From IMG/VR virus record IMGVR_UViG_3300042484_002676, positions 1 to 49,145 of that record: a DNA stretch of 49,145 bases. One strand, given 5' to 3'. The DNA comes from a virus. Below are positions 32,814-48,767 of the stretch, in pieces (position 1 is the stretch's first letter; each line of letters starts with the position of its first letter). A program made the position numbers and the translations under genes. The notes below the pieces were generated by a model. The model saw only the letters and a program-made list of their open reading frames with translations, was not told the DNA's origin and did no database searches.

Positions 32814-33707
32814 TCAATATAGATGATTCTGATTCACATCACTTTTTAATAGAGTTTTTATTTTTTCTCCCCAAAAAATAGTAGAAGGAGTTATGCCTAG
32901 CTTCTTTATTAATTCTAGTTTATACTTGTTTTTTTTAAAAAGCTTACTAGTTAATCCTTCCCATCCTGAGTTACGAAGTCTTGGTACAAACTCTCCGACA
33001 CCCAACGAGCTATATAAATTGGACTTGAATCTACCGGGTTCTATTGTAGCATCATAATAATGATAGTGTCTAACTATCAAGTGCATGTTTAATTCTAGGC
33101 TATGATTTAGGAAACTACTAATACCGTTGATATTATTATCTAGCATGAATCTACTGTACGAACTATATTCAAGTCTATGAGGACTCAGTACTGGTTTATT
33201 GACCCAAGACCACGAATAATCACCCGCAAATACCGGAGTATCATTGCATTGTTCTAGCATCCAAAAATGAGTAGCAACATGTGGTTCTATAATTGAATAT
33301 GGTACTAGGTAATCTAAATATCGGTCGCTTTCAAAGAAGTCAAGTACATCCAACGTAATTATATTCTGTTTGATATTATTTTCACGACAATACAATTCAC
33401 TGTAGTATAAATCTTGCGTATTAACGATGCACCCGTCGACTAATAACTTCATTGTAATGACATTGTGAGGAATACCCAAAGCTATCACAGTTCTAAGTAA
33501 CAATTCACTATCTTGTCCACCACTTAGCAATATATCTACTTTACCCTTATTACTGAGTACATCATGTGCCATGTCAAGATATGATTTAGTACTGTCGGCT
33601 GGTACATCCTTCAGTGTAATATGATGCACTTTTTTACCAGTTACTGAGTCAATAATTAACTTGTTTTCTTTATAATCGTCAACCCCGTCAAACCAAATTA
33701 AATCCAT
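32814..33707 (-). CDS. Stand-alone PP-loop ATPase 1
   Basis: An ATP pyrophosphatase-fold enzyme of 297 aa. The PP-loop SGGQDSE is at residues 62-68 (VDILLSGGQDSELLLR). After it come LGIPHNVITMK and a long all-helical C-terminal part. Members of this superfamily (asparagine synthetase, QueC, TilS, argininosuccinate synthase) activate a carbonyl or carboxylate by adenylation for attack by a nucleophile. There is no glutaminase domain, so the nitrogen or sulfur donor is unknown. It aligns well with PP-loop 2 (SGG.DSE..LR, then LGI.HN.I..K, and an RATH/VATH motif near residue 150). It overlaps the end of the acetyltransferase-like gene by 10 bp. Confidence 0.8.
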   Translation of the reverse strand: MDLIWFDGVDDYKENKLIIDSVTGKKVHHITLKDVPADSTKSYLDMAHDVLSNKGKVDILLSGGQDSELLLRTVIALGIPHNVITMKLLVDGCIVNTQDLYYSELYCRENNIKQNIITLDVLDFFESDRYLDYLVPYSIIEPHVATHFWMLEQCNDTPVFAGDYSWSWVNKPVLSPHRLEYSSYSRFMLDNNINGISSFLNHSLELNMHLIVRHYHYYDATIEPGRFKSNLYSSLGVGEFVPRLRNSGWEGLTSKLFKKNKYKLELIKKLGITPSTIFWGEKIKTLLKSDVNQNHLY

Positions 33708-34300
33708 TTAATGGTCTCCCAATCAAAATCAAAGACTGGATCTAGCTTTTCATACATGATCCATTGCTTTGTATATTGAATATTAACAGGGAACTCCAGT
33801 TCATTTACTCCATTAAAAAATAAGTGGTGTGATTGTCTAGGAGTTCTTTTTTCGCCCAAACGAACTCGTTTCCATATTTTAGTAATATTTTTATTATAAT
33901 CGTTAAAGCAAATAGCAATAGCTTTAAATTTATTTTCAACCGCCCATGATTTTTCTCCGGGCAATAATACTTCTCTAGCAATAGAAAGATGCCTATAATT
34001 TTTTGCTACCCATGTTCTAGTTCCGGCAATTGCTAAATCCTTGCAGAACGCACTAGTATAAACCCCACTACACCCTACTATTTGATCTCCGTCAAATGCC
34101 ACATGATATTCTCCACCTGTAGTAAATCTATTGGTACGTTCTAATAAGTAAGGAAGTGTGTTAGTCTTATTTTTCCATTCATCGTTCCACATGTTGTAGT
34201 GGGCCGGCTGAGTTGTTTCTTTTCTAGCATCTTTCAAAAAATTAAAAAATATAGAATGCTGAATTTCTGTTAAATTTTTATATTCAATAAAGGTGTACAT
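33698..34300 (-). CDS. GNAT-like N-acetyltransferase
   Basis: A 200-aa protein with the strand-helix order of GNAT acyltransferases: VAFDGDQIVGCSGVY as the central strand pair, TRTWVAKNYRHLSIAREVLL as the pre-cofactor segment, and AIAICFNDYNKNITKIWKRV as the later strand and helix. The usual Gln/Arg-x-x-Gly-x-Gly/Ala loop is poorly kept, so acyl-CoA binding is not certain. It is the first gene of a two-gene minus-strand unit with PP-loop 1. No clear Shine-Dalgarno or late promoter is seen upstream. Confidence 0.55.
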   Translation of the reverse strand: MYTFIEYKNLTEIQHSIFFNFLKDARKETTQPAHYNMWNDEWKNKTNTLPYLLERTNRFTTGGEYHVAFDGDQIVGCSGVYTSAFCKDLAIAGTRTWVAKNYRHLSIAREVLLPGEKSWAVENKFKAIAICFNDYNKNITKIWKRVRLGEKRTPRQSHHLFFNGVNELEFPVNIQYTKQWIMYEKLDPVFDFDWETIKWI

Positions 34301-34342
34301 ATTAGATGTTTATTGTCTTATTTAGTATAGTAATTTATTCTG

Positions 34343-34350
34343 TATAAATA
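34343..34350 (+). promoter_or_regulatory. T4-type late promoter of the first desaturase unit
   Basis: A perfect TATAAATA, followed by GAGGG at 34356-34360 and ATG at 34366. The leader would be about ten bases with the ribosome binding site at its 5' end. Confidence 0.7.
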
Positions 34351-34365
34351 CTGAAGAGGGCGCTT

Positions 34366-35133
34366 ATGAATTTTGGATCTACTTCAACAAATATTAATTT
34401 ATTAACTATAGCAACAGCCATAACATCCCTAGTAGGATTGTATAATGTTTCTATGTTCACATGGACTAATATTGTTATAATGTTAGCAAGTTTTTACGTT
34501 TTAAATATTTTGGGTGTATGGATGACCCTGCATCGATACTATTCACATAAATCATTTGAGTTTAAAAATACACACATTAAATGGTTTTTTACAATACTAT
34601 CAATAATTGCAGGGCGTGGTAGTCCATTAGGGTGGGTATATTTACATCGTAAACATCATGCTTATTCTGATACTGAGCAAGACCCGCATAGTCCTAAATA
34701 TTTAGGTTATAAACTGTTTGGATTCAATCATTACAAAAAACAGGAAGAAGAAAAAATGCAAGTGTTTATGATAAAAGACTTGATGACCAAAGAACATTTG
34801 TTTATTCACAAATGGTATATGTTAATTATAATATCTTTTATAGTACTATTTGCTGTACTCAGTTTTGAGTTGTTTTATTTTGCGTGGGTAGTCCCTGCAT
34901 TCCTAATACAGCTTAGCCAATATAATTTTAATTTCTTTGGCCATACGTATGGATACCGTAATTACGAAACTAAGGACGATAGTAAAAATAATAAATGGTT
35001 GTTTCCAATATTATTAGGTGAAGCTTGGCATAATAATCATCACAAGAATCCTGCCTTAGCAACTACAAAAATAAAACACTACGAATATGATCCATTACTA
35101 TCATTGATTAAATTGGTAGGAAACATAAAATGA
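34366..35133 (+). CDS. Membrane fatty-acid desaturase-like protein 1
   Basis: An integral membrane di-iron enzyme of the acyl-lipid/acyl-CoA desaturase family, which uses O2 and electrons to desaturate or hydroxylate acyl chains. All histidine boxes are intact: HRYYSH (56-61), HRKHH (94-98) with the following SDTEQDPHSP, and HNNHH (222-226), plus the NFNFFGH segment before the third box. Hydrophobic pairs lie at about 12-52 and 140-190. At 255 aa it is short; most family members exceed 280. A perfect late promoter is upstream. The stop overlaps the start of the 2OG oxygenase (ATGA). Substrate unknown. Confidence 0.9.
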   Translation: MNFGSTSTNINLLTIATAITSLVGLYNVSMFTWTNIVIMLASFYVLNILGVWMTLHRYYSHKSFEFKNTHIKWFFTILSIIAGRGSPLGWVYLHRKHHAYSDTEQDPHSPKYLGYKLFGFNHYKKQEEEKMQVFMIKDLMTKEHLFIHKWYMLIIISFIVLFAVLSFELFYFAWVVPAFLIQLSQYNFNFFGHTYGYRNYETKDDSKNNKWLFPILLGEAWHNNHHKNPALATTKIKHYEYDPLLSLIKLVGNIK

Positions 35134-35639
35134 CTCAACAATCTGACTTTTTTGTTAAACTAAACCTAACATCTAATGTAAGTAATGACATAATAGCAAA
35201 AATAAAAAACTCGTCTACTGAGCACTGGGGCCTCACATTAGACCAAGATATGATGCATCTGCACGTAGATGATTTTAAGAATGACCCGCACATAGTACAA
35301 ATCATAAATGATTTGGGCGGTGCCAACAGACTGTGTGTTTTTAGATTTCATCCAAACACATGTTACCAATGGCATGTTGATAAAATACGTAACGGGGCGA
35401 TAAACATGCTACTCACCGGATTTGATAGTTTTTGTGCTTTTGGATCAATGTCTCCCGATAGAAAATTTTCTAATTTAACTAAATTAGTGCATGATCCAGA
35501 TACATATTATTTAATGAATGTCAAGAAATTTCATACAGTATTTAATTTCTCGGAAACCAGGTATGTTGTGAGTATAAGTATACCTTCTACTACATATGAA
35601 GACACATGTACCTATCTTAAAGATAAGAATCTGATTTAA
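35130..35639 (+). CDS. 2-oxoglutarate/Fe(II) oxygenase-like protein
   Basis: A 169-aa double-stranded beta-helix protein resembling aspartyl/asparaginyl beta-hydroxylases. The iron site can be read as His82 and Asp84 (YQWHVDKIR) with His135 (KKFHTVFNF), and Arg144 (SETRYVVSIS) is placed to bind 2-oxoglutarate. Such enzymes hydroxylate or otherwise oxidise a substrate with O2 and 2-oxoglutarate. It is sandwiched between two desaturase genes, by a 4-bp overlap before and a 1-bp TAATG overlap after, with TAGGA upstream, so it is very likely part of the same pathway. Confidence 0.75.
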   Translation: MTQQSDFFVKLNLTSNVSNDIIAKIKNSSTEHWGLTLDQDMMHLHVDDFKNDPHIVQIINDLGGANRLCVFRFHPNTCYQWHVDKIRNGAINMLLTGFDSFCAFGSMSPDRKFSNLTKLVHDPDTYYLMNVKKFHTVFNFSETRYVVSISIPSTTYEDTCTYLKDKNLI

Positions 35640-36430
35640 TGTTGATAAATATTGACATGAAGAACATATTCACCAGTTCTACAATAGGAGCACAAATATT
35701 TCAAGTACTAGCTCTATTACTGATAGTAACGGGATTGTTCCAATATGGAATAACAATACAGACCGTGTTACTAGTAATGTTGGGTTATTTTTTGTATGGT
35801 TGTTTAGGCATTGTAGTTACATATCATAGAAATTTAACTCATAGTAGTTATGACACATATCCGTTATTGATTAAGATTTTTTCAGTATTTGGTTGCTTTG
35901 CAGGTACCGGTAGCCCATTAGCCTGGGTTGCAATACATATTAATCATCATTTAAGAAGTGATAAAATAGACGATCCTCATAGCCCTAGATACAAAGGACT
36001 CAAAATCTTTACATTAAATTATGTAAATGAAGTTAACAGTGATACTAAATGGCGCATGAGAAACATGGTAACTGATAAGTTCCAGCAGTTTCTACACCGT
36101 TATTACTTTGCTATAATCATGTTGTATAGTTTATGTCTATATCTAATCGGTGGTTTTTATTTACTAGTATTCCTTCACTTAGCTCCTGCATTAATCACCG
36201 GACTTATGAGTAACGTAGTTAACTATGTTGGACATAAGCCTACTTGGTTAGGCGGATATCGTTCGTATAATCTAAATGATGACAGCACTAACAATTGGTT
36301 ATGGGCTATTCCTAGTTGGGGAGAGTCTTGGCATAACAATCATCATAGATTCCCTAGAGATTACACATTCAAAAAGCAATGGTGGGAATTTGATATATCT
36401 GGATTAATTATCAAAGCTATAAAAAAATGA
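35639..36430 (+). CDS. Membrane fatty-acid desaturase-like protein 2
   Basis: Second desaturase (263 aa). The boxes HRNLTH (63-68), HINHH (100-104) with SDKIDDPHSP, and HNNHH (232-236) are complete, and the GESWHNNHH third box is kept. The second box has Ile-Asn where most members have Arg-x. The N-terminal and central hydrophobic pairs are strong. An alternative start at 35657 (MKNIFTSS) lies 5 nt after GATAAATA, so a shorter leaderless product is possible in late infection. The next desaturase overlaps by 4 bp. Confidence 0.9.
   Translation: MLINIDMKNIFTSSTIGAQIFQVLALLLIVTGLFQYGITIQTVLLVMLGYFLYGCLGIVVTYHRNLTHSSYDTYPLLIKIFSVFGCFAGTGSPLAWVAIHINHHLRSDKIDDPHSPRYKGLKIFTLNYVNEVNSDTKWRMRNMVTDKFQQFLHRYYFAIIMLYSLCLYLIGGFYLLVFLHLAPALITGLMSNVVNYVGHKPTWLGGYRSYNLNDDSTNNWLWAIPSWGESWHNNHHRFPRDYTFKKQWWEFDISGLIIKAIKK
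35644..35651 (+). promoter_or_regulatory. Possible internal late promoter in desaturase 2
   Basis: GATAAATA is followed by exactly 5 nt and an in-frame ATG at 35657. The spacing equals that at the two divergent starts near 41443 and 41485. Confidence 0.35.
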
Positions 36431-37182
36431 AAAGATATATGTACCCAAGAGGTTGGTTTTTTATAACAATGCAGATTATTGCTACTATAGTAACTCTATG
36501 GGCAATTTTTAATCCTGCAGGATTGGGCTATTGGATGTTATCATTGTTTGGTTATTTCTTAATAACTTGTTTAGGTATTTCTGTTATGTTTCACAGATTG
36601 CTAACTCATAAATCATATAAAGTATGGAAGCCCATAGAATACCTCTTTAGTTATTTTGGAAACATTGGTTGTACTGGTAGTTCTGTAGGTTGGGTATTTG
36701 TTCATAGGATGCATCATAGATTTGCTGATAAGCCTGGCGACCCCCACAGCCCTGTTACCATGGGAGCATTAGGAGCAATAGTCGGAGACTACAGTGGAAA
36801 ATTTAACAAATGGGAAGTCAGAGATATCATCAATGACCCGGTACACAGATTTATGCATGAATGCTACATGCTAATAGTGTTGACAACTGTGCTTGTCCTA
36901 TACATGATTGATCCATTGTTATCTGTTTATCTATTCTGGATTCCAATGTTCTTAAACACAGTAGCACCTAGATTAAGCAATTGGATCGATCATGATCCAA
37001 AGTTTGGCACAAAGGCTGATAATAGTAAAGACCAATCTCATAATGTATGGTGGTGGGCACTTCTAACATTCGGGGAAGGATGGCATAACAATCATCATTT
37101 GCGACCCGGTGACTATAGTATAGGAAAGAAGTGGTGGCAAATTGATATCGGTGGTCTGGTTGTTAAATTAATTAGACTATAA
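36427..37182 (+). CDS. Membrane fatty-acid desaturase-like protein 3
   Basis: Third desaturase (251 aa). The boxes are HRLLTH (56-61), HRMHH (93-97) with ADKPGDPHSP, and HNNHH (220-224) in GEGWHNNHH. A WIDHDPKFGTKADNSKD segment replaces the usual NxxGH before the third box; the His is retained. It ends KKWWQIDIGGLVVKLIRL, the WWEID-type tail shared with desaturases 2, 4 and 8. It is coupled by ATGA to desaturase 2, and a PP-loop gene follows after 29 nt. Confidence 0.9.
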   Translation: MKRYMYPRGWFFITMQIIATIVTLWAIFNPAGLGYWMLSLFGYFLITCLGISVMFHRLLTHKSYKVWKPIEYLFSYFGNIGCTGSSVGWVFVHRMHHRFADKPGDPHSPVTMGALGAIVGDYSGKFNKWEVRDIINDPVHRFMHECYMLIVLTTVLVLYMIDPLLSVYLFWIPMFLNTVAPRLSNWIDHDPKFGTKADNSKDQSHNVWWWALLTFGEGWHNNHHLRPGDYSIGKKWWQIDIGGLVVKLIRL

Positions 37183-37211
37183 ACTAGTCAATGTAACCTC
37201 AGGTTAACCCA

Positions 37212-38129
37212 ATGAAATTACCCTTTTATGACAATTGGCAAAAATGGACTGTCAATGATGTTTTATATAGCCACAGAAAAAATAAATCAGACCATTGGAA
37301 TTTCTCAATGCGTAGATGCACTGATCCGATCGGCACACTAAAAGAAGAACTTTTTAACAATGCTAGCAAGATAAGAGACTATTACACCGGACCATTTGAT
37401 GTGTTATATTCAGGTGGTATAGATAGCGAAGTAGTACTTAGGGTGTTTAAAGAATTAGGTATAAAGCACAATACTATAATTGTTAAGTACAAAAATGGAT
37501 ATAACCATAGAGAAATCACTAATGCAATCGAAACTGTAAAATCACTGAATATACCTTATAAGTTAATTGATTTTGATTTAGAAAAGTTCTATGAAACAGA
37601 AGCATATGATTTAAGTATAGAAAGTTCATGTATACGTGTAGGAAGAGCAACACACATAAAATTTTGTAAAGATTTTTGCGACAACATTCCTGTTATGGGT
37701 GAGGGTGATGTATATTGGCGCCGAGATTTAGGAACAGATTATAGTAAACCCTCAGCCTGGAGATTTATTATAGCAGAAGACTCTCACAATTGCGGGATGT
37801 TTATGACAAAGCTGGGTCGAGAAAACGTATGTGATTTCTTTGAGTTTACACCCAATGTCATTAAAGCATACAACAATTACCCACTGGTACAACAATTGTT
37901 AAATGACAAAATTTTAGGTAAGACTAGTAATTGGTCTAGCAAATGGTTGATATATAGAGATATATGGCCTGATCTAGTACAGCGTGTAAAATTAACAGGG
38001 CTTGAAGGTGACAAAGAACCGGGTTATATGCCTATGTTTGTAAAAGAACTACAGGATGTGATAGAAGCTAAAATTGGCTCCGGGGTCACGTATTGGTGCA
38101 CCCCGGAAGAACTAGACAAATTCGTTTAA
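37212..38129 (+). CDS. Stand-alone PP-loop ATPase 2
   Basis: A 305-aa paralogue of PP-loop 1. The PP-loop SGGIDSE is at 67-73 (FDVLYSGGIDSEVVLR), followed by LGIKHNTIIVK and a conserved RATHIKFCKDFCDNIPVMGE segment that matches VATHFWMLEQCNDTPVFAG in the other copy. The C-terminal part contains YWRRD, SAWRF and TYWCTPEEL. No glutaminase, RNA-binding or zinc-finger domain is seen, which argues against QueC or TilS proper. It is the last gene of the desaturase 1-3 unit. Its TAA shares bases with the stop of the convergent Rieske gene (TTTAAA). Confidence 0.8.
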   Translation: MKLPFYDNWQKWTVNDVLYSHRKNKSDHWNFSMRRCTDPIGTLKEELFNNASKIRDYYTGPFDVLYSGGIDSEVVLRVFKELGIKHNTIIVKYKNGYNHREITNAIETVKSLNIPYKLIDFDLEKFYETEAYDLSIESSCIRVGRATHIKFCKDFCDNIPVMGEGDVYWRRDLGTDYSKPSAWRFIIAEDSHNCGMFMTKLGRENVCDFFEFTPNVIKAYNNYPLVQQLLNDKILGKTSNWSSKWLIYRDIWPDLVQRVKLTGLEGDKEPGYMPMFVKELQDVIEAKIGSGVTYWCTPEELDKFV

Positions 38130-38995
38130 ATCTTATTTTCTATATACCAATCAGCCCAGTGCTTTGATTGATCTTCCCACTTGTTAACAGTGCGCCTTAA
38201 GGGGAAATAAGGTCTTTTGATTTTTTCAATAGCAGCTATATCTTCACGATAAACGTCAACACACTTTTCCCAGTCCTCTTTTTCTACTTTACCTAAGTCA
38301 GGTGAATAGTAGAATTGCATATGCCAATTAAATCCATATTCTAGATTTGCATCATTTGGAGTAACTCTAGTAATTACAAGTTTTCCAGGCTCATACTCGA
38401 TGTTAAAGCCCGGGTAAACGAATAGCCAAAATCCCTTAGACCCGTAAGACGTAGGATACATTTGTATAGACCACCCGTCTCCAAATTCATTTTCAATCTT
38501 TTCTAAAGGTGTTTCTAAACTTTGTCTAGGATGAACTCCGTTTTGACGAATATGCAACAAATCAGTCATTTGTTCCATAAGCCACAACCAACTTCCGTTG
38601 CTTGTACCTGTTAGACTATGACTGTAAGCCATTAATGGGGCTTCTCTTAAAATTTTAGACCATTCTGCATCTTCTGGTTCTGTAAAATTCTCATATAGAA
38701 TACCTGTCTTGCTTAATGTAGCTTGACCGTGATGATGCATCTTGTAAAAATGACTGCAATATGGTTCTTTTTCTAATGGTTTACCTTCTAAGTCCCATGC
38801 AAACCCGTGCAGCTTACATACAACATTATTTACCATATCACCCGGTTCGTGCATTATGTATCCGCGGTGAGGACACTCCCTGCTCTTGATATCATATTGG
38901 TTATTGTTCTTTATTATGATCTTGTCTTGTAGCACAAAGTTACCATTATTCAATGCTGATGCATGGGCAAAAATGTTAGGTGGGTTCTTGAACAT
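38126..38995 (-). CDS. Rieske non-haem iron oxygenase
   Basis: A 289-aa oxygenase alpha-subunit-like protein, short for the family (usually 340-450). The Rieske [2Fe-2S] motif is complete: Cys41, His43 (CPHRG), then Cys60 and His63 (CKLHG), 16 residues between pairs. The catalytic domain has Asp145, His148 and His155 (EQMTDLLHIRQNGVH), and an ED..AIE segment near the end offers the Asp ligand. The gap between the two iron His residues is six, against four in most members. The start at 38995 is preferred because GAGAG lies 10-15 nt upstream; the longer frame reads into the preceding gene. Reductase and ferredoxin genes are absent from the window. Confidence 0.88.
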   Translation of the reverse strand: MFKNPPNIFAHASALNNGNFVLQDKIIIKNNNQYDIKSRECPHRGYIMHEPGDMVNNVVCKLHGFAWDLEGKPLEKEPYCSHFYKMHHHGQATLSKTGILYENFTEPEDAEWSKILREAPLMAYSHSLTGTSNGSWLWLMEQMTDLLHIRQNGVHPRQSLETPLEKIENEFGDGWSIQMYPTSYGSKGFWLFVYPGFNIEYEPGKLVITRVTPNDANLEYGFNWHMQFYYSPDLGKVEKEDWEKCVDVYREDIAAIEKIKRPYFPLRRTVNKWEDQSKHWADWYIENKI

Positions 38996-39029: not shown

Positions 39030-40208
39030 TTAAACAGTTGGAATTCTATTAAAATTATCAACATCACCAATGTAGAAAGCCGATGTATATGTTATTAATC
39101 CAGTGCCATCTTTATTTAAGTATTTTTTATCTATTGAATTATAAAAGTGTCTGGTGTCGGATGCAATCATTTCAAATGTTCTAGTAGACTTGTGTAAATC
39201 ATAAAACCATTGGTCATGTTCGCCGAGGAATATTTTAGTAGGTTTCTCCGCTTGGAATATTGGTGTTGCCGTCGAGGGATATATAGTGGGGACTATTGCC
39301 CTTTCATACTTGCTATGTCGCATTCTTTTTTGAGCATCAGACATATTCTCTGTAATTGAAAGGTCATTTACATAACGACCAATGCTAGCGTCACTAAAAA
39401 CTTTTTTTGTCACAACATGTGCTTGTTTAATAAGCATTTGAGTATGATATTTTGACCAATAAAATGCAATATTATAAACGTTAGGATATTCACGATCAAA
39501 TACAGGCCTTGCAACGTTGATAGCTAAGTCACTGAATGCGATGTAAATCTTTTTATTTTTTGTAATGACAACCATTGGTTTGTCAATTCCGTAAATAAAA
39601 CCTATCTTTTTTTCACTGTCAGCCAACTTAACAAGATGTTTTTGTCTTTCTAATCTATATCGGGCTATCCCTGAAGGATGCACCCAGTCTTCTGATCTGT
39701 ATAACCAATCGTCTGATTTAAAATCTAGGATGTCTTGAAAATAATCATGCACTGTTATCTTAACATCAGGGTAGTCTATTGCAATTTGTTTAATAAATGG
39801 GATCTGTGTATATAGTGTTTCACTAATAGTATTTTTGTTAGAAGTATCGCTATTGTTGAAGTCAAAGTTACTGAGCCCACTAAGTGGAACGCTAGCAACT
39901 ATCTCATCTATTTTGATGCCATTTCTTAGAAAGGTCAGCACTACATTTGAACTGTCAGCACCACCGCTACAAAAAACAATGATATAATCAAACTCCTCAC
40001 GAAGTTGTTTAGCCCGTTGAACATAAAAATAATCTAATGATTCCGCTGGCTCTTCGGTCCAATTGAAGGTTTTAAATGAATCATTATTAAAATACCAAGA
40101 CACCTCGGATTTTGTCTTGTTAGCTTCTATTATTGCATCAATCTTATGAATAAACCGCTGGCCTCCTACAATATAAAAATTGTCGTTATCGATATTTTTT
40201 TGCATCAT
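39030..40208 (-). CDS. Stand-alone PP-loop ATPase 3
   Basis: The longest PP-loop protein of the locus (392 aa). SGGADSS is at 81-87 (YIIVFCSGGADSSNVVL). The N-terminal 75 residues resemble neither PP-loop 1 nor 2. Later it has KKIGFIYGIDKPMVVI, placed like the second ATP-binding strand of asparagine synthetase-type domains, and FYWSKYHTQMLIKQAHVV. Adenylating ligase chemistry is inferred from the fold. Its ATG directly abuts the stop of the cupin gene, so the two are made together. The stop at 39030 is 34 nt before the Rieske start. Confidence 0.78.
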   Translation of the reverse strand: MMQKNIDNDNFYIVGGQRFIHKIDAIIEANKTKSEVSWYFNNDSFKTFNWTEEPAESLDYFYVQRAKQLREEFDYIIVFCSGGADSSNVVLTFLRNGIKIDEIVASVPLSGLSNFDFNNSDTSNKNTISETLYTQIPFIKQIAIDYPDVKITVHDYFQDILDFKSDDWLYRSEDWVHPSGIARYRLERQKHLVKLADSEKKIGFIYGIDKPMVVITKNKKIYIAFSDLAINVARPVFDREYPNVYNIAFYWSKYHTQMLIKQAHVVTKKVFSDASIGRYVNDLSITENMSDAQKRMRHSKYERAIVPTIYPSTATPIFQAEKPTKIFLGEHDQWFYDLHKSTRTFEMIASDTRHFYNSIDKKYLNKDGTGLITYTSAFYIGDVDNFNRIPTV

Positions 40209-40826: not shown

Positions 40827-41443
40827 TATATAATTTCATCCTTATTGAATATTTGTAAACGATATCGTTGTGCTAATGTATGGTACATTATAACTGTATC
40901 TATAGGAACAGTTTTGAAATGTCCTGAAAAATAAAAAGAGTGAGCATTGCATTTGCAGTTGGCATTGGCAGGATATACCATGTCATAATAAACATCGTAT
41001 CTTACCTCGTCCCTACTAACATGCATGTCAATAATTTTTTCTATTGTTTTTTGATGACTTAGTGGCCTGCGTGAATAGAAGTTATAGAAACCATTGTCTT
41101 CACCGTATATAATTAACATTTTTAACAATTCTAAGAAGTAAATATTATTGACCTTATAATTAATACCCAATCCGATGGTCTTACTTAAATGATTTGTAGC
41201 ATACCAGGTTAACGAGTAATTTGGATAATATCCACCTAACGAATTTACTAGCTCTCCGTTAACAAACACTCCTGCTATTTTATTATCAGATGAATTGATT
41301 TTAACATCAAACAAATTCAACAAGTATTCATTTATTACAGAGTCTTTTTTGAAGCCCATAAAATTTTTATGACCTTCAATTATTTCCCTGTATTGGTCCT
41401 TATCCGCTCTTTCCAAAAATCTGTAAATTACGATATCAGTCAT
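40826..41443 (-). CDS. Unknown protein, possibly acyltransferase-like
   Basis: A 205-aa protein. The order of segments (KIAGVFVNGELVNSLGGY, then a long helix KVNNIYFLELLKMLIIYGED, then FYNFYSRRPLSHQKTIEKI) recalls a GNAT fold, but no acyl-CoA loop can be read, so this is weak. An NANCKCNAHSFYF segment carries two Cys and one His. It is the first gene of a four-gene minus-strand unit (this gene, cupin, PP-loop 3, Rieske). There is no Shine-Dalgarno; the ATG is 5 nt after GATAAATA. Confidence 0.5.
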   Translation of the reverse strand: MTDIVIYRFLERADKDQYREIIEGHKNFMGFKKDSVINEYLLNLFDVKINSSDNKIAGVFVNGELVNSLGGYYPNYSLTWYATNHLSKTIGLGINYKVNNIYFLELLKMLIIYGEDNGFYNFYSRRPLSHQKTIEKIIDMHVSRDEVRYDVYYDMVYPANANCKCNAHSFYFSGHFKTVPIDTVIMYHTLAQRYRLQIFNKDEII

Positions 41444-41448
41444 ATAAA

Positions 41449-41456
41449 TATTTATC
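41449..41456 (-). promoter_or_regulatory. Late promoter of the cupin/PP-loop/Rieske unit
   Basis: GATAAATA on the minus strand, then TTTAT and the ATG at 41443. With T4-like spacing, transcription would begin at or beside the A of ATG, giving a leaderless mRNA. Confidence 0.5.
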
Positions 41457-41471
41457 GTTAGGTCGACATAC

Positions 41472-41479
41472 TATAAATA
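41472..41479 (+). promoter_or_regulatory. Late promoter of the radical SAM gene
   Basis: A perfect TATAAATA, followed by TTTAT and the ATG at 41485, the same 5-nt spacing as on the opposite strand. A leaderless transcript is predicted. Confidence 0.6.
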
Positions 41480-41484
41480 TTTAT

Positions 41485-42945
41485 ATGAATGTCATACTTT
41501 TAACCTGTGTTTCAGGTACATTATACCAACGAGCATTAGGTGCATACCAATTGGCATTTTTCCTCAGGGAACACGGGTACACCGTTCAAGTAATAGATTT
41601 TACAGATGAATTAAGTGAAAATGAACTGATTGAGGCACTCGATAATCACATAACATCTGACACCTTATGTATAGGTATAAGCACAACATTCTATAATGAT
41701 TTTAATGTTGAAATATTTTCTTCAACCAGAGACTACAAAGCACATATACCTAAAAACATAAAATCTGCAATTGAATATTCCAAACAGAAATATTCAAATA
41801 TAAAAGTGGTACTAGGTGGAGCAAAGTCATTGACAGGCGAGCACTTAGACTTTGTTGATTGTGTTATCCATGGGTATGGTGAAGATAAGATGTTAAATTT
41901 TTTGAACGGATTAGATAATAATCCCAAACGAATAAAAAATAAAATAATTACCTTAGGTCAATCAACATCAAAACAATTAATCATATATAATGACCCGTTA
42001 GATTGTAAATTTGACATACAGAAAAATAGCCATCGTTTCATTGAACAGGATTATATATTGCCCAATGAAACATTACCTATTGAAATTTCTCGAGGGTGTA
42101 TTTTTAAATGCAAATTTTGTGCATACCCATTAACAGGTAAGAAAAAATTTGATTATATAAGAGACCCAAAACTCATTTATGATGAAATGATGTATAACTA
42201 TGAAAATTTTAACACAACTAATTATTTTTTCGGAGACGATACACTAAACGATAGCACATTTAAAATAGAAAGCCTACATAAATCTATAACATCTTTGCCA
42301 TTTAAAATAAAATTTACATCATATTTAAGATTGGATTTGTTACACCATAACCCGGAACAAATTTCTATGTTAAAGGAAATGGGACTAGCAAGCCCGTTTT
42401 TTGGTATTGAAAGTTTAAATCAACGATCTGCTTCTAGCGTAGGTAAGGGAATGGATGTTAATAAAGTAAAAGAATTTTTACTTGAGTTGTATAATGATCA
42501 TTGGAACAAAGAGATTCCAATATACTTATCATTAATTATAGGTCTCCCATACGAAACAGAAAAATCTATGAGAGAGACATTTCAATGGGTAAAAGAGACA
42601 GAACTTAGTGCTAGTTTTCAACCACTGTCTATATTATCACAATCTATTTACAAATCAGAATTTGAGAAGAACATACAGAAATACGGATATACAGTAAAAG
42701 AAAATGGTTACTGGGAAAACGAGAACATGAATGTTAATCAAGCCGAGGTCTTATCTAAAGAATTCAATGAGACTTTATTGTTTAAATCTAGACCGGCTAG
42801 CTGGTTTTTAATGACGTTATTAAATCATAATATGACGTTAGATCAATGTAGTAGCATGACAGTTAGTGATTTAAATTGGACTAAGATAATTCTTGCCAAA
42901 AAGAAAAAAATAGCAAAATATAAATCACTATTACTCAGAACCTAA
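41485..42945 (+). CDS. Radical SAM enzyme with a B12-binding-like N-terminal domain
   Basis: A 486-aa protein. Residues 1-140 look like a cobalamin-binding-type Rossmann domain (MNVILLTCVSGTLYQRALGA; LREHGYTVQVIDF; VVLGGAKSL; CVIHGYGED) but lack the DxHxxG cobalamin His, as many relatives do. The radical SAM core starts at ISRGCIFKCKFC with Cys205, Cys209 and Cys212 for the [4Fe-4S] cluster; FFGDDTLND and GIESLNQRS are the usual SAM-domain segments. Such enzymes perform difficult methylations, ring closures or C-C bond chemistry. The frame starts within a divergent promoter repeat. Its end overlaps the end of desaturase 4 by 11 bp. Confidence 0.9.
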   Translation: MNVILLTCVSGTLYQRALGAYQLAFFLREHGYTVQVIDFTDELSENELIEALDNHITSDTLCIGISTTFYNDFNVEIFSSTRDYKAHIPKNIKSAIEYSKQKYSNIKVVLGGAKSLTGEHLDFVDCVIHGYGEDKMLNFLNGLDNNPKRIKNKIITLGQSTSKQLIIYNDPLDCKFDIQKNSHRFIEQDYILPNETLPIEISRGCIFKCKFCAYPLTGKKKFDYIRDPKLIYDEMMYNYENFNTTNYFFGDDTLNDSTFKIESLHKSITSLPFKIKFTSYLRLDLLHHNPEQISMLKEMGLASPFFGIESLNQRSASSVGKGMDVNKVKEFLLELYNDHWNKEIPIYLSLIIGLPYETEKSMRETFQWVKETELSASFQPLSILSQSIYKSEFEKNIQKYGYTVKENGYWENENMNVNQAEVLSKEFNETLLFKSRPASWFLMTLLNHNMTLDQCSSMTVSDLNWTKIILAKKKKIAKYKSLLLRT

Positions 42946-43705
42946 AAATAATACTGAATGATTTTCCTATCAACGCCTCTATATCTATTTCCCACCACCG
43001 TTCATGTAAATTCAATTTCTTAGCATCTCGATGATGATTGTTGTGCCAGCCGAAACCCATTGTTAAGAATCCTAGTACTAGATTATTGTGGCTATCATCT
43101 AGTAGGTCGTGGTTTCTATAGTTACCAGGAATGTATTTCAAGTGGAGTATAGAATTGATTAACCCGAATTTTATAAGTTCTAGTACGTAACTTGCCGACC
43201 AAAGCAAAAATAATTCTGGGCTTATAACATACATGAGAACATAAAATAATACATTAATTTCAATAAAGCGTTTTGATGGGTTACTTATATCAGGATCACG
43301 CAATGTTTTTATGGTTAATATCTTAGAACTGCGGTCATCAAACACACTGTTAATTATTGCAGGTCTGAACATCCAGAAAATTATACTATTCCACAATCCA
43401 TTTTTTGGGCTATGTACATCATTTTTTTGGTCACTATTACGGTGATGGTGTAAATGTTGTACTATCCAATAGAAAGGTGTACTATATCCTGAGATAATAG
43501 TATAGTATGAAAATAGTTTTCGTGAATAAGGACCAACTGTAAATTGATTATGAGCGAAATATCGATGACCTACAACACCATTACCAATAGTTCTAAATAA
43601 CCAGACTGGTATCAGTAACCACCAATAGCTTATATAATAAAAAGATACAAGACCTAATATCGTTAATATAATGCTGAAAAAAACGTATGAACGAGTATTT
43701 GTCAT
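42935..43705 (-). CDS. Membrane fatty-acid desaturase-like protein 4
   Basis: Last gene of a five-desaturase operon (256 aa). The boxes are HRYFAH (47-52), HLHHH (84-88) with SDQKNDVHSP, and HNNHH (221-225) in GFGWHNNHH. The second box has Leu-His in place of Arg-x, and Val where most members have Pro in DPHSP. It ends RWWEIDIEALIG plus a short hydrophobic tail. The pre-third-box ILHLKYIPGNYRNHDLLDDS keeps the His. It overlaps desaturase 5 by 4 bp. An additional di-iron oxidation step is inferred. Confidence 0.9.
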   Translation of the reverse strand: MTNTRSYVFFSIILTILGLVSFYYISYWWLLIPVWLFRTIGNGVVGHRYFAHNQFTVGPYSRKLFSYYTIISGYSTPFYWIVQHLHHHRNSDQKNDVHSPKNGLWNSIIFWMFRPAIINSVFDDRSSKILTIKTLRDPDISNPSKRFIEINVLFYVLMYVISPELFLLWSASYVLELIKFGLINSILHLKYIPGNYRNHDLLDDSHNNLVLGFLTMGFGWHNNHHRDAKKLNLHERWWEIDIEALIGKSFSIIFRF

Positions 43706-44445
43706 TTTGAAAGAAGTTTAATAAAAAAGTAGCTACCGTCGAATTCACCTCTCGCTACTGCCAGATTGTTTAGTCTAATATTATCATGGTGATTTTTGTG
43801 CAAGGTGCTCCCACCAGATATCCAACTTAAAATTTTATTATTTCGGCTAGTGAACTCTGACCCGTTTTTGTGGTGCAAAAATGCATTTACTAACATTTCG
43901 CTATGAAATGTTAAGGCACATCCTAACAATGTGCCGGTGAACACGTTGAAATCTAAGATTAGTAATATCAATAGTCCAATCAAAACAATGTGCTTGGAGT
44001 ATTTATTAATGGTCAATAAAGTTGTATCTCTTAATAAATCTTTAACTGTAATTAAATTAAACTCTCGTAAATTGAATAACCATAATATATAGGCATGTAG
44101 TAACCCATCAGAAGGTGTATGGGGGTCATTTATCGTATCGCTATTTGAGTGATGTTGTCTATGTATTTGAGCCCAAGTAACAGGTCCGCCCATTAATCCA
44201 AAACAGCTTAATATTGCAATAAAATATTTTATCACATTGTTTTTTGGTGTCCAGTTTTTGTGAGCGAATAACTTATGAGTTCCCGCCTGTATACCTAACC
44301 AATATATAAGAACATAACTAATAGCCATGGATAATAGAGTAACAATCCAATTCGACACATAAAATAAAGAAATTATCATAGCGAATTGTAGTGGTAGGTT
44401 AAACCAAAAATAGTATTGTCGGCTTTCTGTCTTTAAAGAACTCAT
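43702..44445 (-). CDS. Membrane fatty-acid desaturase-like protein 5
   Basis: The most divergent desaturase (247 aa from the chosen start). The boxes are still complete: HKLFAH (57-62), HRQHH (95-99) with SDTINDPHTP, and HKNHH (216-220). The third box sits in STLHKNHHDN instead of GEGWHNNHH, and the last 25 residues lack the WWEID tail, so substrate or reaction may differ. The start at 44445 is preferred to an upstream in-frame codon because it forms the same ATGA overlap with desaturase 6 as every other junction in this operon. Confidence 0.88.
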   Translation of the reverse strand: MSSLKTESRQYYFWFNLPLQFAMIISLFYVSNWIVTLLSMAISYVLIYWLGIQAGTHKLFAHKNWTPKNNVIKYFIAILSCFGLMGGPVTWAQIHRQHHSNSDTINDPHTPSDGLLHAYILWLFNLREFNLITVKDLLRDTTLLTINKYSKHIVLIGLLILLILDFNVFTGTLLGCALTFHSEMLVNAFLHHKNGSEFTSRNNKILSWISGGSTLHKNHHDNIRLNNLAVARGEFDGSYFFIKLLSK

Positions 44446-45209
44446 TTTAAAAATCTTTCTACTAAAAAAGCACATAAATCCCATTCGAATGGTTTTTTAG
44501 TAAATGCAAAGTCATACTCTCCCGGTTTAGCATGATGGTTATTATGCAAACCTTCTCCCAATGTCAGCCAATTCCACATATGACTATTAACCGTAGAATC
44601 TGTGGTTTCAAAATTTCTATAACCCTGACTAGGCAAATGCAGAGGTAAACTTAATACGGCTGAAGACCACCAACTAAAACCAGCAGGCAACATATAGCAA
44701 AATAACACCAGTTTAGGATCGATCAATGCTAACAACAGGATGTATAAAAAGATTACTGCAAAATAATATTTGTGTAACCACATTAATGTTGGGTTTCGTA
44801 GCAAGTCTTTTATACTTCCTACAGAAGTCTTCTCAGAAGGATCTTCTTTATACCAATGCCAAAAACTTCTCCAATACCCTATCTCATGGGGACTGTGTAA
44901 ATCCTTGCCGTTATCACTATTAGCATGGTGATATCTATGTACAGTTACATATTGTAGAGTACTACCAGTAGTGCTTAATGTAGCAAGTAAGGCAATAAAC
45001 TTTTCCTTCCATTCAGACATCTTGAAACTCTTATGTGTAAAGTAACGGTGTTGACCGATACTAGCGCCGAATTTACTAACAAACAGAATTCCAAATAGTG
45101 CTGCTAGGTAATACCCTAGGCTATTTACATATATTAGATATATAACTATTGGAATTATAGCCCATGTATTTAATTGTTGTATAATTCTAAGCAAGATAGT
45201 ATTGTTCAT
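44442..45209 (-). CDS. Membrane fatty-acid desaturase-like protein 6
   Basis: Desaturase of 255 aa with HRYFTH (54-59), HRYHH (91-95) followed by SDNGKDLHSP, and HNNHH (222-226) in GEGLHNNHH. Leu replaces Pro in the DPHSP motif. Three to four membrane-spanning stretches are visible (residues about 17-50, 70-90, 145-185). The GYRNFETTDSTVNS loop before the third box resembles that of desaturase 1. ATGA overlaps on both sides. Confidence 0.9.
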   Translation of the reverse strand: MNNTILLRIIQQLNTWAIIPIVIYLIYVNSLGYYLAALFGILFVSKFGASIGQHRYFTHKSFKMSEWKEKFIALLATLSTTGSTLQYVTVHRYHHANSDNGKDLHSPHEIGYWRSFWHWYKEDPSEKTSVGSIKDLLRNPTLMWLHKYYFAVIFLYILLLALIDPKLVLFCYMLPAGFSWWSSAVLSLPLHLPSQGYRNFETTDSTVNSHMWNWLTLGEGLHNNHHAKPGEYDFAFTKKPFEWDLCAFLVERFLK

Positions 45210-45967
45210 AACTTCTTAATCATAAAAATTTTTTCGATCAATATGCCAGGAAAATCAAATTGTCCCTTAGCCATAACATATGAATATGCACCGGGGTTGT
45301 GGTGATGATTGTTATGATATCCCTCATTCCATGTTAACCATTTTAAAAATGTGTTGTTACTACTATTATCCTTAGTATTGAAGGGTCGTGTCCCAAACTC
45401 TGGCCTATGTCCTAATACATTGACTAATCCAGCTGCAATGAAATTATAAATCACATTAAAACTTAAAAAATACCCAGTGAGTTCAACCCCTAATGTAACT
45501 AACAATAATATCAGTAACGCTATATTTAAAAGAAAATAATTTCTGTGTATCCACTTGTGTACCGGGTCTTTTATTAAATCTGACACTAACTTAGCTTCAA
45601 TGCTGTAATTTTTATTTCGCACGTAGAATACAACTTTCCACCATGGTGTAGTAATGTGTGGGTCTCGTTCAGTATCACTGAATGCGTGATGTTGTCTATG
45701 AATTCCTGAATACGTTATGCTTGATCCATATAATAAAGGGGTGCTAAAAAAATGTAAAATCATTTCTTTAAATTTTGTCGTCTTGTAGCTCTTATGACAC
45801 CACAGTCTATGCAATGCAACTTCATTACCAATTGCATTAAAAAATTTCGCAACGGCCCAACCGAATAGAAGAAAGTACCAATCAAAATGAGCCACTAGTG
45901 TATACGATACTATAATAGCATGTACTGCTATCATAAACATTAATTTTGCGTGAAACGATACCTTCAT
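45206..45967 (-). CDS. Membrane fatty-acid desaturase-like protein 7
   Basis: Desaturase of 253 aa, the copy most like classical bacterial delta-9 enzymes by eye: EVALHRLWCHKSYK (box 53-58), HRQHH (90-94) with SDTERDPHIT, NVLGHRPEFGTR, and NEGYHNNHHHNPGAY (box 218-222). The NExxHNxHH context is the usual family form. It lacks the WWEID tail. It is overlapped by desaturases 8 and 6 by 4 bp each. Substrate unknown. Confidence 0.91.
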   Translation of the reverse strand: MKVSFHAKLMFMIAVHAIIVSYTLVAHFDWYFLLFGWAVAKFFNAIGNEVALHRLWCHKSYKTTKFKEMILHFFSTPLLYGSSITYSGIHRQHHAFSDTERDPHITTPWWKVVFYVRNKNYSIEAKLVSDLIKDPVHKWIHRNYFLLNIALLILLLVTLGVELTGYFLSFNVIYNFIAAGLVNVLGHRPEFGTRPFNTKDNSSNNTFLKWLTWNEGYHNNHHHNPGAYSYVMAKGQFDFPGILIEKIFMIKKL

Positions 45968-46716
45968 TTTTTAATCATCCTAATGAACAAACCCGGCGGG
46001 TCAATTTCCCACCATTTTTCTCCCTGTTTCCAAGACCCGGGATGGGCATGGTGATTATTGTGCCAACCTTCACCTAGACTTAGAATATTAGCAATCCAAC
46101 TATTTTTCGAAGTATCTTTTGTTTGATGTGTTTCGTATCCATGGATGTGTCCAATGACCGTAACAGATGCGACACCGTTTAAACAGCCGGTTGCGGGAAT
46201 CGCATATGCGAAAATTATTAAAAGTGGATCGATAATGGCTAAAATAATTACATATAAGAAAATTACCTTGAAGTAGTGCTTATGTAAAAAAACGATGACG
46301 GGATCTTTAATAACATCAGCAATGTACTTTCTTGAAATATCGACTCTTTTCCAGTTATACGTGTATGCTTTAAACCACCCTATATGTCTTGGACTGTGAG
46401 GATCCATCTCAGTGTCGGCATGTTGGTGGTGATATCGATGTACCGCTACCCAACTAATAATAGATCCTAATGTTGCTAAAGTGCCAACTACTGCTAAAAT
46501 TATCTCCATTGGTCTGTTAGTTTTATAGGAACGGTGGCTAAAATATCTATGGAATCCGGCATTTGCGCCTACTATTCCAAATAGAAGAAAACTAAAAATA
46601 GCTATACTAGCATAATACATCCCAGGATGTAATACCAAGTAGACAATGCCAACACAACTTAGAGTCGCATTTAACAGTTGCAATAGTTTTATTTGATGAT
46701 TAAAGTTTCGTCGCAT
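45964..46716 (-). CDS. Membrane fatty-acid desaturase-like protein 8
   Basis: First gene of the five-gene operon (250 aa from the chosen start). The boxes are HRYFSH (56-61), HRYHH (93-97) with ADTEMDPHSP, and HNNHH (219-223) in GEGWHNNHHAHPGSW, ending KWWEIDPPGLFIRMIKK. The start ATG at 46716 is taken because it is the first ATG and lies just after AATAAATA; a TTG at 46749 would add 11 residues but has no ribosome binding site. The next gene overlaps by 4 bp. Confidence 0.89.
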   Translation of the reverse strand: MRRNFNHQIKLLQLLNATLSCVGIVYLVLHPGMYYASIAIFSFLLFGIVGANAGFHRYFSHRSYKTNRPMEIILAVVGTLATLGSIISWVAVHRYHHQHADTEMDPHSPRHIGWFKAYTYNWKRVDISRKYIADVIKDPVIVFLHKHYFKVIFLYVIILAIIDPLLIIFAYAIPATGCLNGVASVTVIGHIHGYETHQTKDTSKNSWIANILSLGEGWHNNHHAHPGSWKQGEKWWEIDPPGLFIRMIKK

Positions 46717-46720
46717 CTTG

Positions 46721-46728
46721 TATTTATT
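46721..46728 (-). promoter_or_regulatory. Late promoter of the five-desaturase operon
   Basis: AATAAATA on the minus strand, 4 nt from the ATG of desaturase 8, with no Shine-Dalgarno between. It is one base tighter than the other promoter-to-ATG cases, so leaderless initiation here is less certain. Confidence 0.4.
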
Positions 46729-46748
46729 TAAAACATAGAATACCTTCA

Positions 46749-46756
46749 AATAAATA
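46749..46756 (+). promoter_or_regulatory. Late promoter of the 201-codon gene and PP-loop 4
   Basis: AATAAATA is followed by AAGGGAAG at 46762-46769 and ATG at 46776. Unlike the opposite-strand start 60 bp away, this gene has a clear ribosome binding site. Confidence 0.5.
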
Positions 46757-46775
46757 TAGCAAAGGGAAGTTAATA

Positions 46776-47381
46776 ATGTTCAACGTGGTTTGTTTGTATG
46801 TAGATGAATCTACAAATGGTATATTAAGGTGTGTGGCTTTTGACGGTACTTTTGTTCCTCCGGATTTTTATCCTGCAAGAGTGCCAGGCTACAGTACCAA
46901 GTATCACATGATAAGAGAATATTCCCGCGCAATAACAAATGAATATTATTTATATGAATATGATTTAACGTACGGAGTCAAAAAACACGGTAAATTACCA
47001 ACCCAAGAAGAATTAGATAATATTTTAATTTTAAATAAGAAATTTGAGTGTATTGAAATTTTGTTTAGGACAATGGTCACTTTTAATAAAACAACAGTCA
47101 ATGACTTTTATCATTCAGAAATGGTTAAAAGTATCATTGATTATGAAATGAAAAATGAATTAGCCGGTGACTCTGGTAGCTTAACTGATTTTCTAATGAA
47201 TGAACAACAATTAGATTTTTCTACTTTTAAGACACTACACGATTTACAATCTAAGTTTATTTATGAAAAAAAGAAGGACTTATACAAGAGTATGATGATC
47301 GGACAGACTAATATATTTAATAGTTCACAACCATCAGTAGAGCTTACATCTGAATTATTCAGAACATATTATCTAAAATAA
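46776..47381 (+). CDS. Unknown protein of the desaturase locus (201 aa)
   Basis: Not recognised. The N-terminal third is beta-rich (MFNVVCLYVDESTNG; ILRCVAFDGTFVPPDFYPAR), the middle is Tyr-rich (REYSRAITNEYYLYEYDLTYG), and the rest is helical and charged (FYHSEMVKSIIDYEMKNELAG). No signal peptide, membrane segment or metal motif is seen. It lies 1 nt before PP-loop 4 and opposite the five-desaturase operon, so it may be an accessory or substrate-binding protein of the pathway; this is positional inference. Confidence 0.65.
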   Translation: MFNVVCLYVDESTNGILRCVAFDGTFVPPDFYPARVPGYSTKYHMIREYSRAITNEYYLYEYDLTYGVKKHGKLPTQEELDNILILNKKFECIEILFRTMVTFNKTTVNDFYHSEMVKSIIDYEMKNELAGDSGSLTDFLMNEQQLDFSTFKTLHDLQSKFIYEKKKDLYKSMMIGQTNIFNSSQPSVELTSELFRTYYLK

Positions 47382-47382
47382 A

Positions 47383-48414
47383 ATGTCATTATTACTATTT
47401 TTTCCGCAAATAAGCAGCTTATTTAAACCACATCATTGGACAGGATCTATGAACATTCATAATCCTCCTCTATATTCTACTATTAGTAGGTGCGAGTACA
47501 AACCTGATATTTTTGATTATAAATTAGTAGTGCCCTCTATATCAGAAGTTGCCGAGTATGATAAACATACTCATAGTTTTTCTGACCTCATGGACCTTCG
47601 TAGTTTGGATTTACTCAGTAAACAAGAGCGATGTTTTATACTTTATAGCGGTGGGGTTGATAGTACTGGTTTAATGGTTAGTATTATGAAAAACTGGTCT
47701 AAAGAGGATCAGAAAAGAGTAACTATCGTATGCACCCCTCATAGTTACTATGAGTTCCCAGACTTCTTTAAAGTGTTGAATAAAAATTTCACAATAGAAT
47801 TGTGTAAAAATAGTTATAAAACCTACACTAATCGCGGTATTTTAGTTACAGGAATACAAGCAGACCTTTTGTTCCCCCATAGTTGGTGGCAAGATAAAGC
47901 ATGGAATCTAGGGGAAGATGTTGTGTTTGGTAACTATAAGGACAAGATGCCCTTATTATTTGAATATATGTTTCCAAATTTTGGAAAAAAAGTGTTTGAA
48001 TACTACCATGAGATAGTAGTTAACCCTGTATACGAAATTAATAATGTTGCTGATTTTTGCTACTGGTTTTGGTTTTCTCAATATTACCAAAAAGTAGCAT
48101 TATTATTATGGCAGGCCCAAGGCGCGATAGATGATAAACCGATGTTTGACAGGATTTTTAATTTTTACGATTGGCCTATGTTTGAAACTTGGAGTATTGC
48201 TAACGCAAAAGCTATTGTGACCTCTGAATTGCCACTAGTTAAGAAGTCCTTAAAGGATTATATAGTTCAATACACTCATTTACCTGACTATTATTATAAA
48301 CCTAAAGTTCCTAGCAACGGAAACACTCATAGCGGCAACCGATATAATATCGGTTTAGACGAAGATTGGAATTTGATTTCTATGCAGGAATCTCTAAAGT
48401 ATTTGAAAAATTAA
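47383..48414 (+). CDS. Stand-alone PP-loop ATPase 4, asparagine synthetase-like
   Basis: A 343-aa protein. SGGVDST is at 89-95 (CFILYSGGVDSTGLMV). It is the copy most like the C-terminal domain of asparagine synthetase B: the segment GILVTGIQADLLFPHSWW matches the place of the GxGxDExFxGY loop, though the acidic pair is reduced to Asp, and MFDRIFNFYDWPMFETWSIAN matches the late helical region. No N-terminal glutaminase (no Cys2 nucleophile) is present, so it would need free ammonia or another nucleophile, as in beta-lactam synthetase-like enzymes. It ends by sharing TTAA with the convergent next gene. Confidence 0.78.
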   Translation: MSLLLFFPQISSLFKPHHWTGSMNIHNPPLYSTISRCEYKPDIFDYKLVVPSISEVAEYDKHTHSFSDLMDLRSLDLLSKQERCFILYSGGVDSTGLMVSIMKNWSKEDQKRVTIVCTPHSYYEFPDFFKVLNKNFTIELCKNSYKTYTNRGILVTGIQADLLFPHSWWQDKAWNLGEDVVFGNYKDKMPLLFEYMFPNFGKKVFEYYHEIVVNPVYEINNVADFCYWFWFSQYYQKVALLLWQAQGAIDDKPMFDRIFNFYDWPMFETWSIANAKAIVTSELPLVKKSLKDYIVQYTHLPDYYYKPKVPSNGNTHSGNRYNIGLDEDWNLISMQESLKYLKN

Positions 48415-48767
48415 TTCCTTTCAAAAAAATCACCGGACTCTATAACAATGTTGTCTGGACTTAATATTTTCCAAAATAAATGCGTTCTGATGATACCGTT
48501 TTCAGCGCAATATAAAGATGCCTTTATGTTAGTGGTCTCTAAGTCCGGTGATGAATAAATTTCAGAAGTGGTGTACTCATTAACTATATTAAATTCACTA
48601 GTTCTTGTTAGGGTCAATTGATCTAATGATTCTTCATAAGTGGTACTTATAAATATACCGTTATCACTCCAAATTTGCAAAGTTGCTAGATCGTCTTGGT
48701 CAAGTTGGTACCATTGTATATTTATATTTGGTCTTACTAATACTCGTATTAATTGTAGTCTGTTCAT
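48411..48767 (-). CDS. Unknown small protein (118 aa)
   Basis: Not recognised. It is a beta-rich protein (IRVLVRPNINIQWYQL; GIFISTTYEESLDQLTLTRT; IIRTHLFWKIL) with no membrane segment. The start at 48767 is chosen over one at 48863 because GGAG lies 8 nt upstream and a late promoter lies just before that; the longer frame would run through both and into a plus-strand promoter. Convergent with PP-loop 4, stops overlapping. Confidence 0.65.
   Translation of the reverse strand: MNRLQLIRVLVRPNINIQWYQLDQDDLATLQIWSDNGIFISTTYEESLDQLTLTRTSEFNIVNEYTTSEIYSSPDLETTNIKASLYCAENGIIRTHLFWKILSPDNIVIESGDFFERN

Follow-up and report, generated by a model that had tools for sequence, protein, structure and literature searches.

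A probable acyl-modifying gene cluster with eight desaturases in a putatively T4-like phage: gene content, co-occurrence and a possible acyl-derived product

The IMG/VR virus record IMGVR_UViG_3300042484_002676 was analysed over its full length of 49,145 bases, referred to here as the window, which is probably a fragment. About 16 kb of this DNA from an uncultured, putatively T4-like phage, between positions 32814 and 48863, is 98.8% coding and carries desaturase genes, many of them joined by 4-base overlaps, together with PP-loop genes, oxygenases, a radical S-adenosylmethionine (radical SAM) enzyme, a cupin, and acyltransferase-like genes. A preliminary description, made from the sequence alone, had counted eight desaturase-like and four PP-loop genes in this region, and both counts were borne out.

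The forward-strand desaturase genes are D1 (34366–35133; at most 66% identical to those of other phages), D2 (35639–36430; at most 76%), and D3 (36427–37182; at most 83%), while D4 (42935–43705), D5 (43702–44445), D6 (44442–45209), D7 (45206–45967; 53% identical in locus L084), and D8 (45964–46716) lie on the reverse strand. Preferred starts at about 44445 for D5 and 46716 for D8, as well as at about 38995 and 48767 for 2 further genes described below, were taken from the translations; the inferred ATG of D5 lies within a longer frame reaching 44484, and D8, whose ATG start is likewise inferred, has a TTG option at 46749. All 8 proteins passed the curated cut-off of PF00487 without internal stops, and 3 His boxes and an extra His residue are invariant among them. 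The desaturase profile matches the acyl-CoA desaturase SCD1 (4ymk; E 3.6e-35), and by motif and profile all 8 are predicted to be intact membrane di-iron desaturases.

The window desaturases are at most 39% identical to one another, whereas other phages carry counterparts of D1, D2, D3, D4, D7, and D8 at 50–83% identity; for D8, 40 reciprocal-best loci were found at 35% identity or more. D5 and D6 are without a close counterpart in other phages. A recent tandem duplication was rejected for at least D1–D4, D7, and D8, which are clearly nearer to the copies of other phages than to their paralogues in the window. The genes thus represent old, separate lineages, and the joint retention of 8 distinct lineages suggests that they differ in specificity.

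The SGGxDS motif is invariant in all 4 PP-loop genes: PP1 (32814–33707, reverse strand; SGGQDSE), PP2 (37212–38129, forward), PP3 (39030–40208, reverse; SGGADS), and PP4 (47383–48414, forward; SGGVDS). The synthetase-like PP1 and PP2 belong to one family, PP12, and a gene 85% identical to PP1 is present in contigs L018 and L269. PP3 has 544 viral relatives and no PDB or Pfam match, and reached 96.8% against PP12 in hhalign. PP4 falls into an Asn-synthase-like family, of which the member in L069 showed a weak Asn_synthase match (E 0.0015). Only PP2 has a Pfam match of its own (QueC, 24.5 bits against a cut-off of 22), and it alone among the 4 was modelled, with a predicted Rossmann-like synthetase fold (pLDDT 95.1). 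The best full-length matches of this model were asparagine synthetase B and the beta-lactam synthetase domain (TM about 0.5, 11–15% identity), whose glutaminase domain PP2 lacks. Both of these enzymes form amide bonds through ATP activation of a carboxylate. The PP12 profile also matches NH3-dependent NAD synthetase (E 4e-7), and its hhalign value of 68% against Escherichia coli AsnB is supportive across the ATP site only. CtaC of the closthioamide pathway is likewise of the PP-loop/AANH type and works on substrates bound to a carrier (PMC6772006). PP12, by contrast, is amide-synthetase-like, and its alignment lacks any invariant cysteine that could serve an Fe-S cluster; a thioamide synthetase of the CtaC kind is therefore disfavoured. 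In several phages, genes for TctC-like periplasmic binding proteins lie directly 3′ of PP3 (L018:16242–17138; L036:3154–4035). TctC was found in 45 of 78 PP3 loci, with or without desaturases, and forms a second PP3-linked module.

GNATa (33698–34300, reverse strand) matches PF00583 with 21.4 bits (cut-off 20.7), and a confident model (pLDDT 94.7) predicts a GNAT fold. GNAT enzymes typically move an acyl group onto an amine. The acyltransferase-like genes of the preliminary description were supported in this case by Pfam and the fold model, but not for 40826–41443 (reverse strand), a conserved gene without Pfam match whose place beside the cupin is kept in L020 and L096. The label GNATb for this gene, like GNATc for a family in related phages, was given by appearance; in hhalign, GNATc reached 93% against GNATa and GNATb just 40%. 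The acyl-homoserine-lactone synthase BjaI was among the fold matches of GNATa, yet scored no better than ordinary GNATs, and this function is not claimed. Among 50,697 isolate phages, no matches were found for GNATa, PP2, PP3, or the radical SAM enzyme, and a scan of genomes with the GNATa alignment confirmed no cellular relative; GNATa and PP3 may therefore be uncharacterized enzymes.

The remaining enzyme classes named in the preliminary description were also recovered. A putative 2-oxoglutarate (2OG)/Fe(II)-type oxygenase of family OG46 (35130–35639, forward) was recognized by an HxD...H...R motif kept across its homologues, without a Pfam match. The Rieske non-heme iron oxygenase (38126–38995, reverse; PF00355, 28.3 bits; ATG start, with a TTG option at 39070) contains the [2Fe-2S] ligands and a D-x2-H-x6-H mononuclear-iron motif, of which D/H/H are invariant in 10 homologues; as the only query against viral contigs, it yielded nothing. 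A predicted B12-radical-SAM enzyme (41485–42945, forward; PF04055, 54.3 bits, above the cut-off) is methyltransferase-like, its profile matching TokK and CysS. Its CxxxCxxC motif is invariant, and its B12-binding domain scored 28.1 bits (E 2e-6), under the cut-off of 32.1. The cupin (40209–40826, reverse; PF07883/PF02311) has a 49% identical counterpart at the same place in L096.

The co-occurrence of these families was assessed in loci fetched with PP3 and with the B12-radical-SAM enzyme, neither of which was picked for desaturases. Loci with 2 kb or more in common at 80% identity were merged, giving 96 independent phage loci, 34 with and 62 without a desaturase; the flanks extended to at most 10 kb, and the family profiles and alignments behind both scans were themselves derived from desaturase-anchored loci, which qualifies the counts. 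GNATa was present in 21 of the 34 desaturase loci and in none of the 62 others. PP12 followed the same pattern (25/34 versus 5/62), as did GNATc (16/34 versus 1/62), AspHyd10 (17/34 versus 8/62), the short-chain dehydrogenase/reductase (SDR; 8/34 versus 3/62), the Rieske oxygenase (6/34 versus 2/62), and the acyl carrier protein (ACP; 5/34 versus 1/62). The negative controls, comprising the core genes h30325 and LYS as well as RS27 and TctC, were unassociated with desaturases across the 96 loci. Related phages with such genes scattered singly had been named in advance as evidence against a joint function; instead, GNAT and PP-loop genes track the desaturases in independent phages.

A similar arrangement was found in L096, a locus from a 73-kb contig, which encodes 8 desaturases, a ketosynthase (KAS), GNATa, GNATb, GNATc, a cupin, PP3, 2 PP12 members, a Rieske oxygenase, a 2OG oxygenase, and a fragment of the B12-radical-SAM enzyme. 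As in the window, lysin and h30325 genes adjoin the cluster, whose order largely matches. Clear counterparts (D1, 2OG, D2, PP3, cupin, PP1, GNATa, and GNATb) are 35–64% identical to the window proteins. Unless the genes function jointly, it is difficult to account for the same order in 2 such diverged phages.

The site itself is a cargo hotspot, with cargo that differs between close relatives. On its left side are nrdA/nrdB, an endolysin, IscU, AhpC, and AhpD. Close relatives (nrdB 88–96%) share IscU-h31294 and mostly AhpC-AhpD, followed, where the contig extends, by differing members of the same enzyme classes. In 80 loci from close relatives, retrieved through the nrdB of the window, desaturases number about 1.2 per Mb, versus 8 in 16 kb of the window. 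The junction between AhpD and PP1 was found again in L269, and in L018 with one additional gene. As it recurs in these independent contigs, a chimeric origin of the window was rejected. Such a site could also be a hyperplastic storage region, where unrelated auxiliary genes pile up because they are tolerated, without a shared pathway. The different cargo of close relatives at the same site would fit this, as would the occurrence of TctC and of some radical SAM and PP3 genes without desaturases. We nevertheless consider it very improbable, given the strong and specific associations relative to the negative controls, the order kept in L096, and the tight packing of the genes.

Relatives of the window add carrier and chain-building genes. 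Among 36 related records, selected for carrying desaturases, ACP was found in 9 and ketosynthase in 7. KAS, FabZ/FabA, AcpS, SDR, and ACP were upheld by Pfam in L036, L050, and L018, KAS also in L096, and ACP in L078 and L118; the Cys-His-His triad of the KAS is kept in every copy. In several independent clusters, just 3–39 bp separate an ACP gene from a desaturase. An OG4-KAS-ACP-FABZ-PP12 run, next to AcpS and a desaturase, was seen repeatedly (L071, L084, and L086), and also in L083, there without a recognized ACP; the KAS-ACP-FABZ-PP12 run of L071 is followed by a Rieske gene. In these runs PP12 shares an operon with carrier and chain-building genes, which connects the PP-loop gene with chemistry on acyl carriers. 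In L263, which has an nrdB 94% identical to that of the window, the genes GNATa-ACP-PP12-GNATc-desaturase come after IscU, at the cargo site of the window. A full type II fatty acid/polyketide set (KAS with its triad, ACP, dehydratase, and AcpS) was found in L050, L071, and L086, but not in the window fragment, where neither KAS nor ACP was found. A genome scan for the KAS returned only distant relatives, at 23–31% identity, and no cellular parent cluster. In L041 (6476–11575), 5 tandem desaturases directly follow a ketosynthase, with no PP-loop or GNAT genes recognized nearby, possibly a minimal version of the cluster. In the phage of L069, an AMP-binding enzyme of the acyl-activating type is encoded about 10 kb from a desaturase (G013:C1:106059–106976).

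The preliminary description had left open whether the genes remodel host membrane lipids or make an acyl-derived molecule. In the former case, the desaturases would alter the acyl chains of host phospholipids or acyl-CoA for fluidity, and the other genes would have separate functions. The match of the desaturase profile to acyl-CoA desaturases is consistent with this, and published viruses with 5 desaturases each have been read in this way (PMC7300359). Eight diverged lineages, however, exceed what fluidity would need, and neither the restriction of GNATa to desaturase loci nor the co-travelling ACP, AcpS, KAS, and PP12 would be expected. We therefore regard membrane remodelling as unlikely and favour the second option, since in relatives the desaturases have ACP, AcpS, ketosynthase, and FabZ as neighbours, and GNAT and PP-loop genes track the desaturases.

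Two further uses of an acyl group were considered. An acyl product could be placed on lipopolysaccharide (LPS), capsule, or another surface glycan, blocking superinfection or changing a receptor. Phage surface-modifying genes are often variable, and genes that look like sugar or LPS biosynthesis genes, by sequence reading rather than by profile, lie beside the cassette in L018 and L036. No glycosyltransferase or O-antigen acyltransferase was recognized in the window cluster, though, and we consider surface decoration improbable. Alternatively, the acyl part could be the substituent of a hypermodified DNA or RNA base, as PP-loop/QueC-like, 2OG, and radical SAM families all occur in nucleic-acid modification. 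Such a role would not account for 8 membrane desaturases, nor for ACP, KAS, and AcpS, no base-modification enzyme was recognized in the cluster, and the full-length likeness of PP2 is to asparagine and beta-lactam synthetases; we consider this reading barely conceivable.

Rather, these phages probably make or tailor a fatty-acyl molecule late in infection. With moderate confidence, we interpret the locus as a modular, exchangeable phage cluster that builds or modifies a molecule derived from an acyl chain and whose expression is probably late. In the pathway that we infer, the acyl chain would be held on a carrier, either a host or phage ACP or CoA. Several regiospecific desaturases and the Rieske and 2OG oxygenases would oxidize the carrier-bound chain in turn, and the B12-radical-SAM enzyme might methylate it. 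Linkage of the chain to an amine would fall to the GNAT acyltransferase and to the PP-loop synthetases, which use ATP; the resemblance of PP2 to amide-forming synthetases and the acyl-to-amine transfer typical of GNATs point to an acyl-amide type of product, which would presumably benefit the phage. In some sister phages, phage-encoded ketosynthase, FabZ, SDR, ACP, and AcpS would also lengthen the chain, while the window fragment, which shows no chain-building genes, would use host acyl chains.

Several points weigh against this interpretation. As the window is without ACP or KAS, carrier use is proposed here by analogy, and the records with ACP or KAS are a minority of a desaturase-selected set. 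The desaturases match acyl-CoA desaturases, with nothing indicating ACP specificity. Neither a product nor a transporter or resistance gene was identified, and the PP-loop and GNAT chemistry is deduced at the level of folds with modest TM scores (about 0.5). A more far-reaching version, to which we give somewhat less than even weight, is that T4-like lytic phages whose hosts are probably freshwater bacteria maintain a combinatorial cluster for diverse acyl-derived specialized metabolites in infection. Its set would comprise a dedicated ACP, a ketosynthase, many desaturases, PP-loop amide synthetases, and a GNAT, and close relatives would reshuffle these enzymes much as phages do receptor or defence genes.

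Late expression would be consistent with the placement of TATAAATA, the T4 late-promoter consensus. One match, a candidate late promoter, lies before D1 (34343–34350, forward), and 3 others (41443 and 41472, forward; 41478, reverse) lie in a putative divergent control region (41443–41485). With 8 occurrences versus 9.2 expected, the motif is not over-represented in the window overall; only its placement in the intergenic regions of the cassette stands out. The right end of the fragment has 2 near-identical repeats (48857–48982, forward) with exact TTGACA-N17-TATACT promoter-like sites.

The nearest functional analogues are cellular alkyne and polyyne clusters (jamABC; protegencin and caryoynencin; PMC8406139). 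Like the sister phages, though not the window, these combine several desaturases with a dedicated ACP; they use 3 desaturases, as well as a fatty acyl-AMP ligase and a rubredoxin that were not found in the window. The ligase (PF00501) is absent from the window and present in 2 of the 36 related records, and no rubredoxin (small ORF with C-x2-CG...C-x2-CG) was found in the window or L001–L095. With ligase, rubredoxin, and dedicated ACP all missing from the window, membership in this class was rejected. General Pfam scans revealed no thioesterase among the window proteins, although no dedicated search was made.

Phage desaturases have been described as auxiliary metabolic genes in cyanophages (Roitman 2018), in the Pelagibacter phage Mosig EXVC030M, and in 2 cryopeg viruses with 5 desaturases each, for which a role in membrane fluidity was proposed (Zhong et al. 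2020; PMC7300359). These are likewise membrane di-iron desaturases with intact His boxes and set a precedent for multiple copies. The window differs in that 8 lineages are clustered with PP-loop, GNAT, Rieske, 2OG, and B12-radical-SAM genes, to which its sister phages add ACP, KAS, FabZ, and AcpS. The earlier statement that no described phage set of this size was known thus calls for some qualification as regards multiple desaturases, while the wider cluster was not found described in the open-access literature. The genes reported for freshwater pelagimyophages, which are T4-like, include fabF, a stearoyl-CoA desaturase, and a 2OG enzyme, combining a type II fatty acid synthesis gene with 2 of the classes found here; they are listed there as unique genes, in a passage that describes no cluster of comparable size or association (Zaragoza-Solas et al. 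2020; PMC7029224). If our interpretation is correct, some uncultured phages perform chemistry of the secondary-metabolite type, beyond boosting host metabolism. The gene families needed for testing this are now defined and present in many phage contigs, and the published multi-desaturase phages would merit re-inspection for the same partner genes.

Within the cluster, 2 further genes encode a 201-aa protein (46776–47381, forward), without homologue in the fetched loci or Pfam or PHROG match, and a small protein of family f21 (48411–48767, reverse, with its start at about 48767; profile E 1.8e-12). Directly before the cluster, the flank contains genes for an IscU-like Fe-S scaffold (30914–31294, forward; PF01592, 179 bits), a core gene in a flank kept in relatives, the peroxiredoxin AhpC (31670–32224, forward; PF00578), located 5′ of the cargo site in close relatives, and an AhpD-like protein of the CMD family (32221–32766, forward; PF02627). 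Together (30914–32766), these could provide Fe-S clusters and peroxide defence to the iron- and oxygen-dependent enzymes. The window IscU is 80–88% identical to the best IscU of Burkholderiales, the only order compared. Neither gp23 nor other structural genes lie within the fragment; gp23 is present in the syntenic relative G011, and also in G016 and G033. Downstream of nrdB, on the opposite strand, a possible GIY-YIG homing endonuclease (24163–24738, reverse) gave a weak match under the cut-off (E 0.045). Farther left, about a dozen tandem genes of some 220 aa (10479–20259) adjoin a gene of 3451 aa and possibly form a large adhesin or fibre set; all 7 that were tested, including the larger gene at 18934–20259, match Laminin_G_3 lectin domains.

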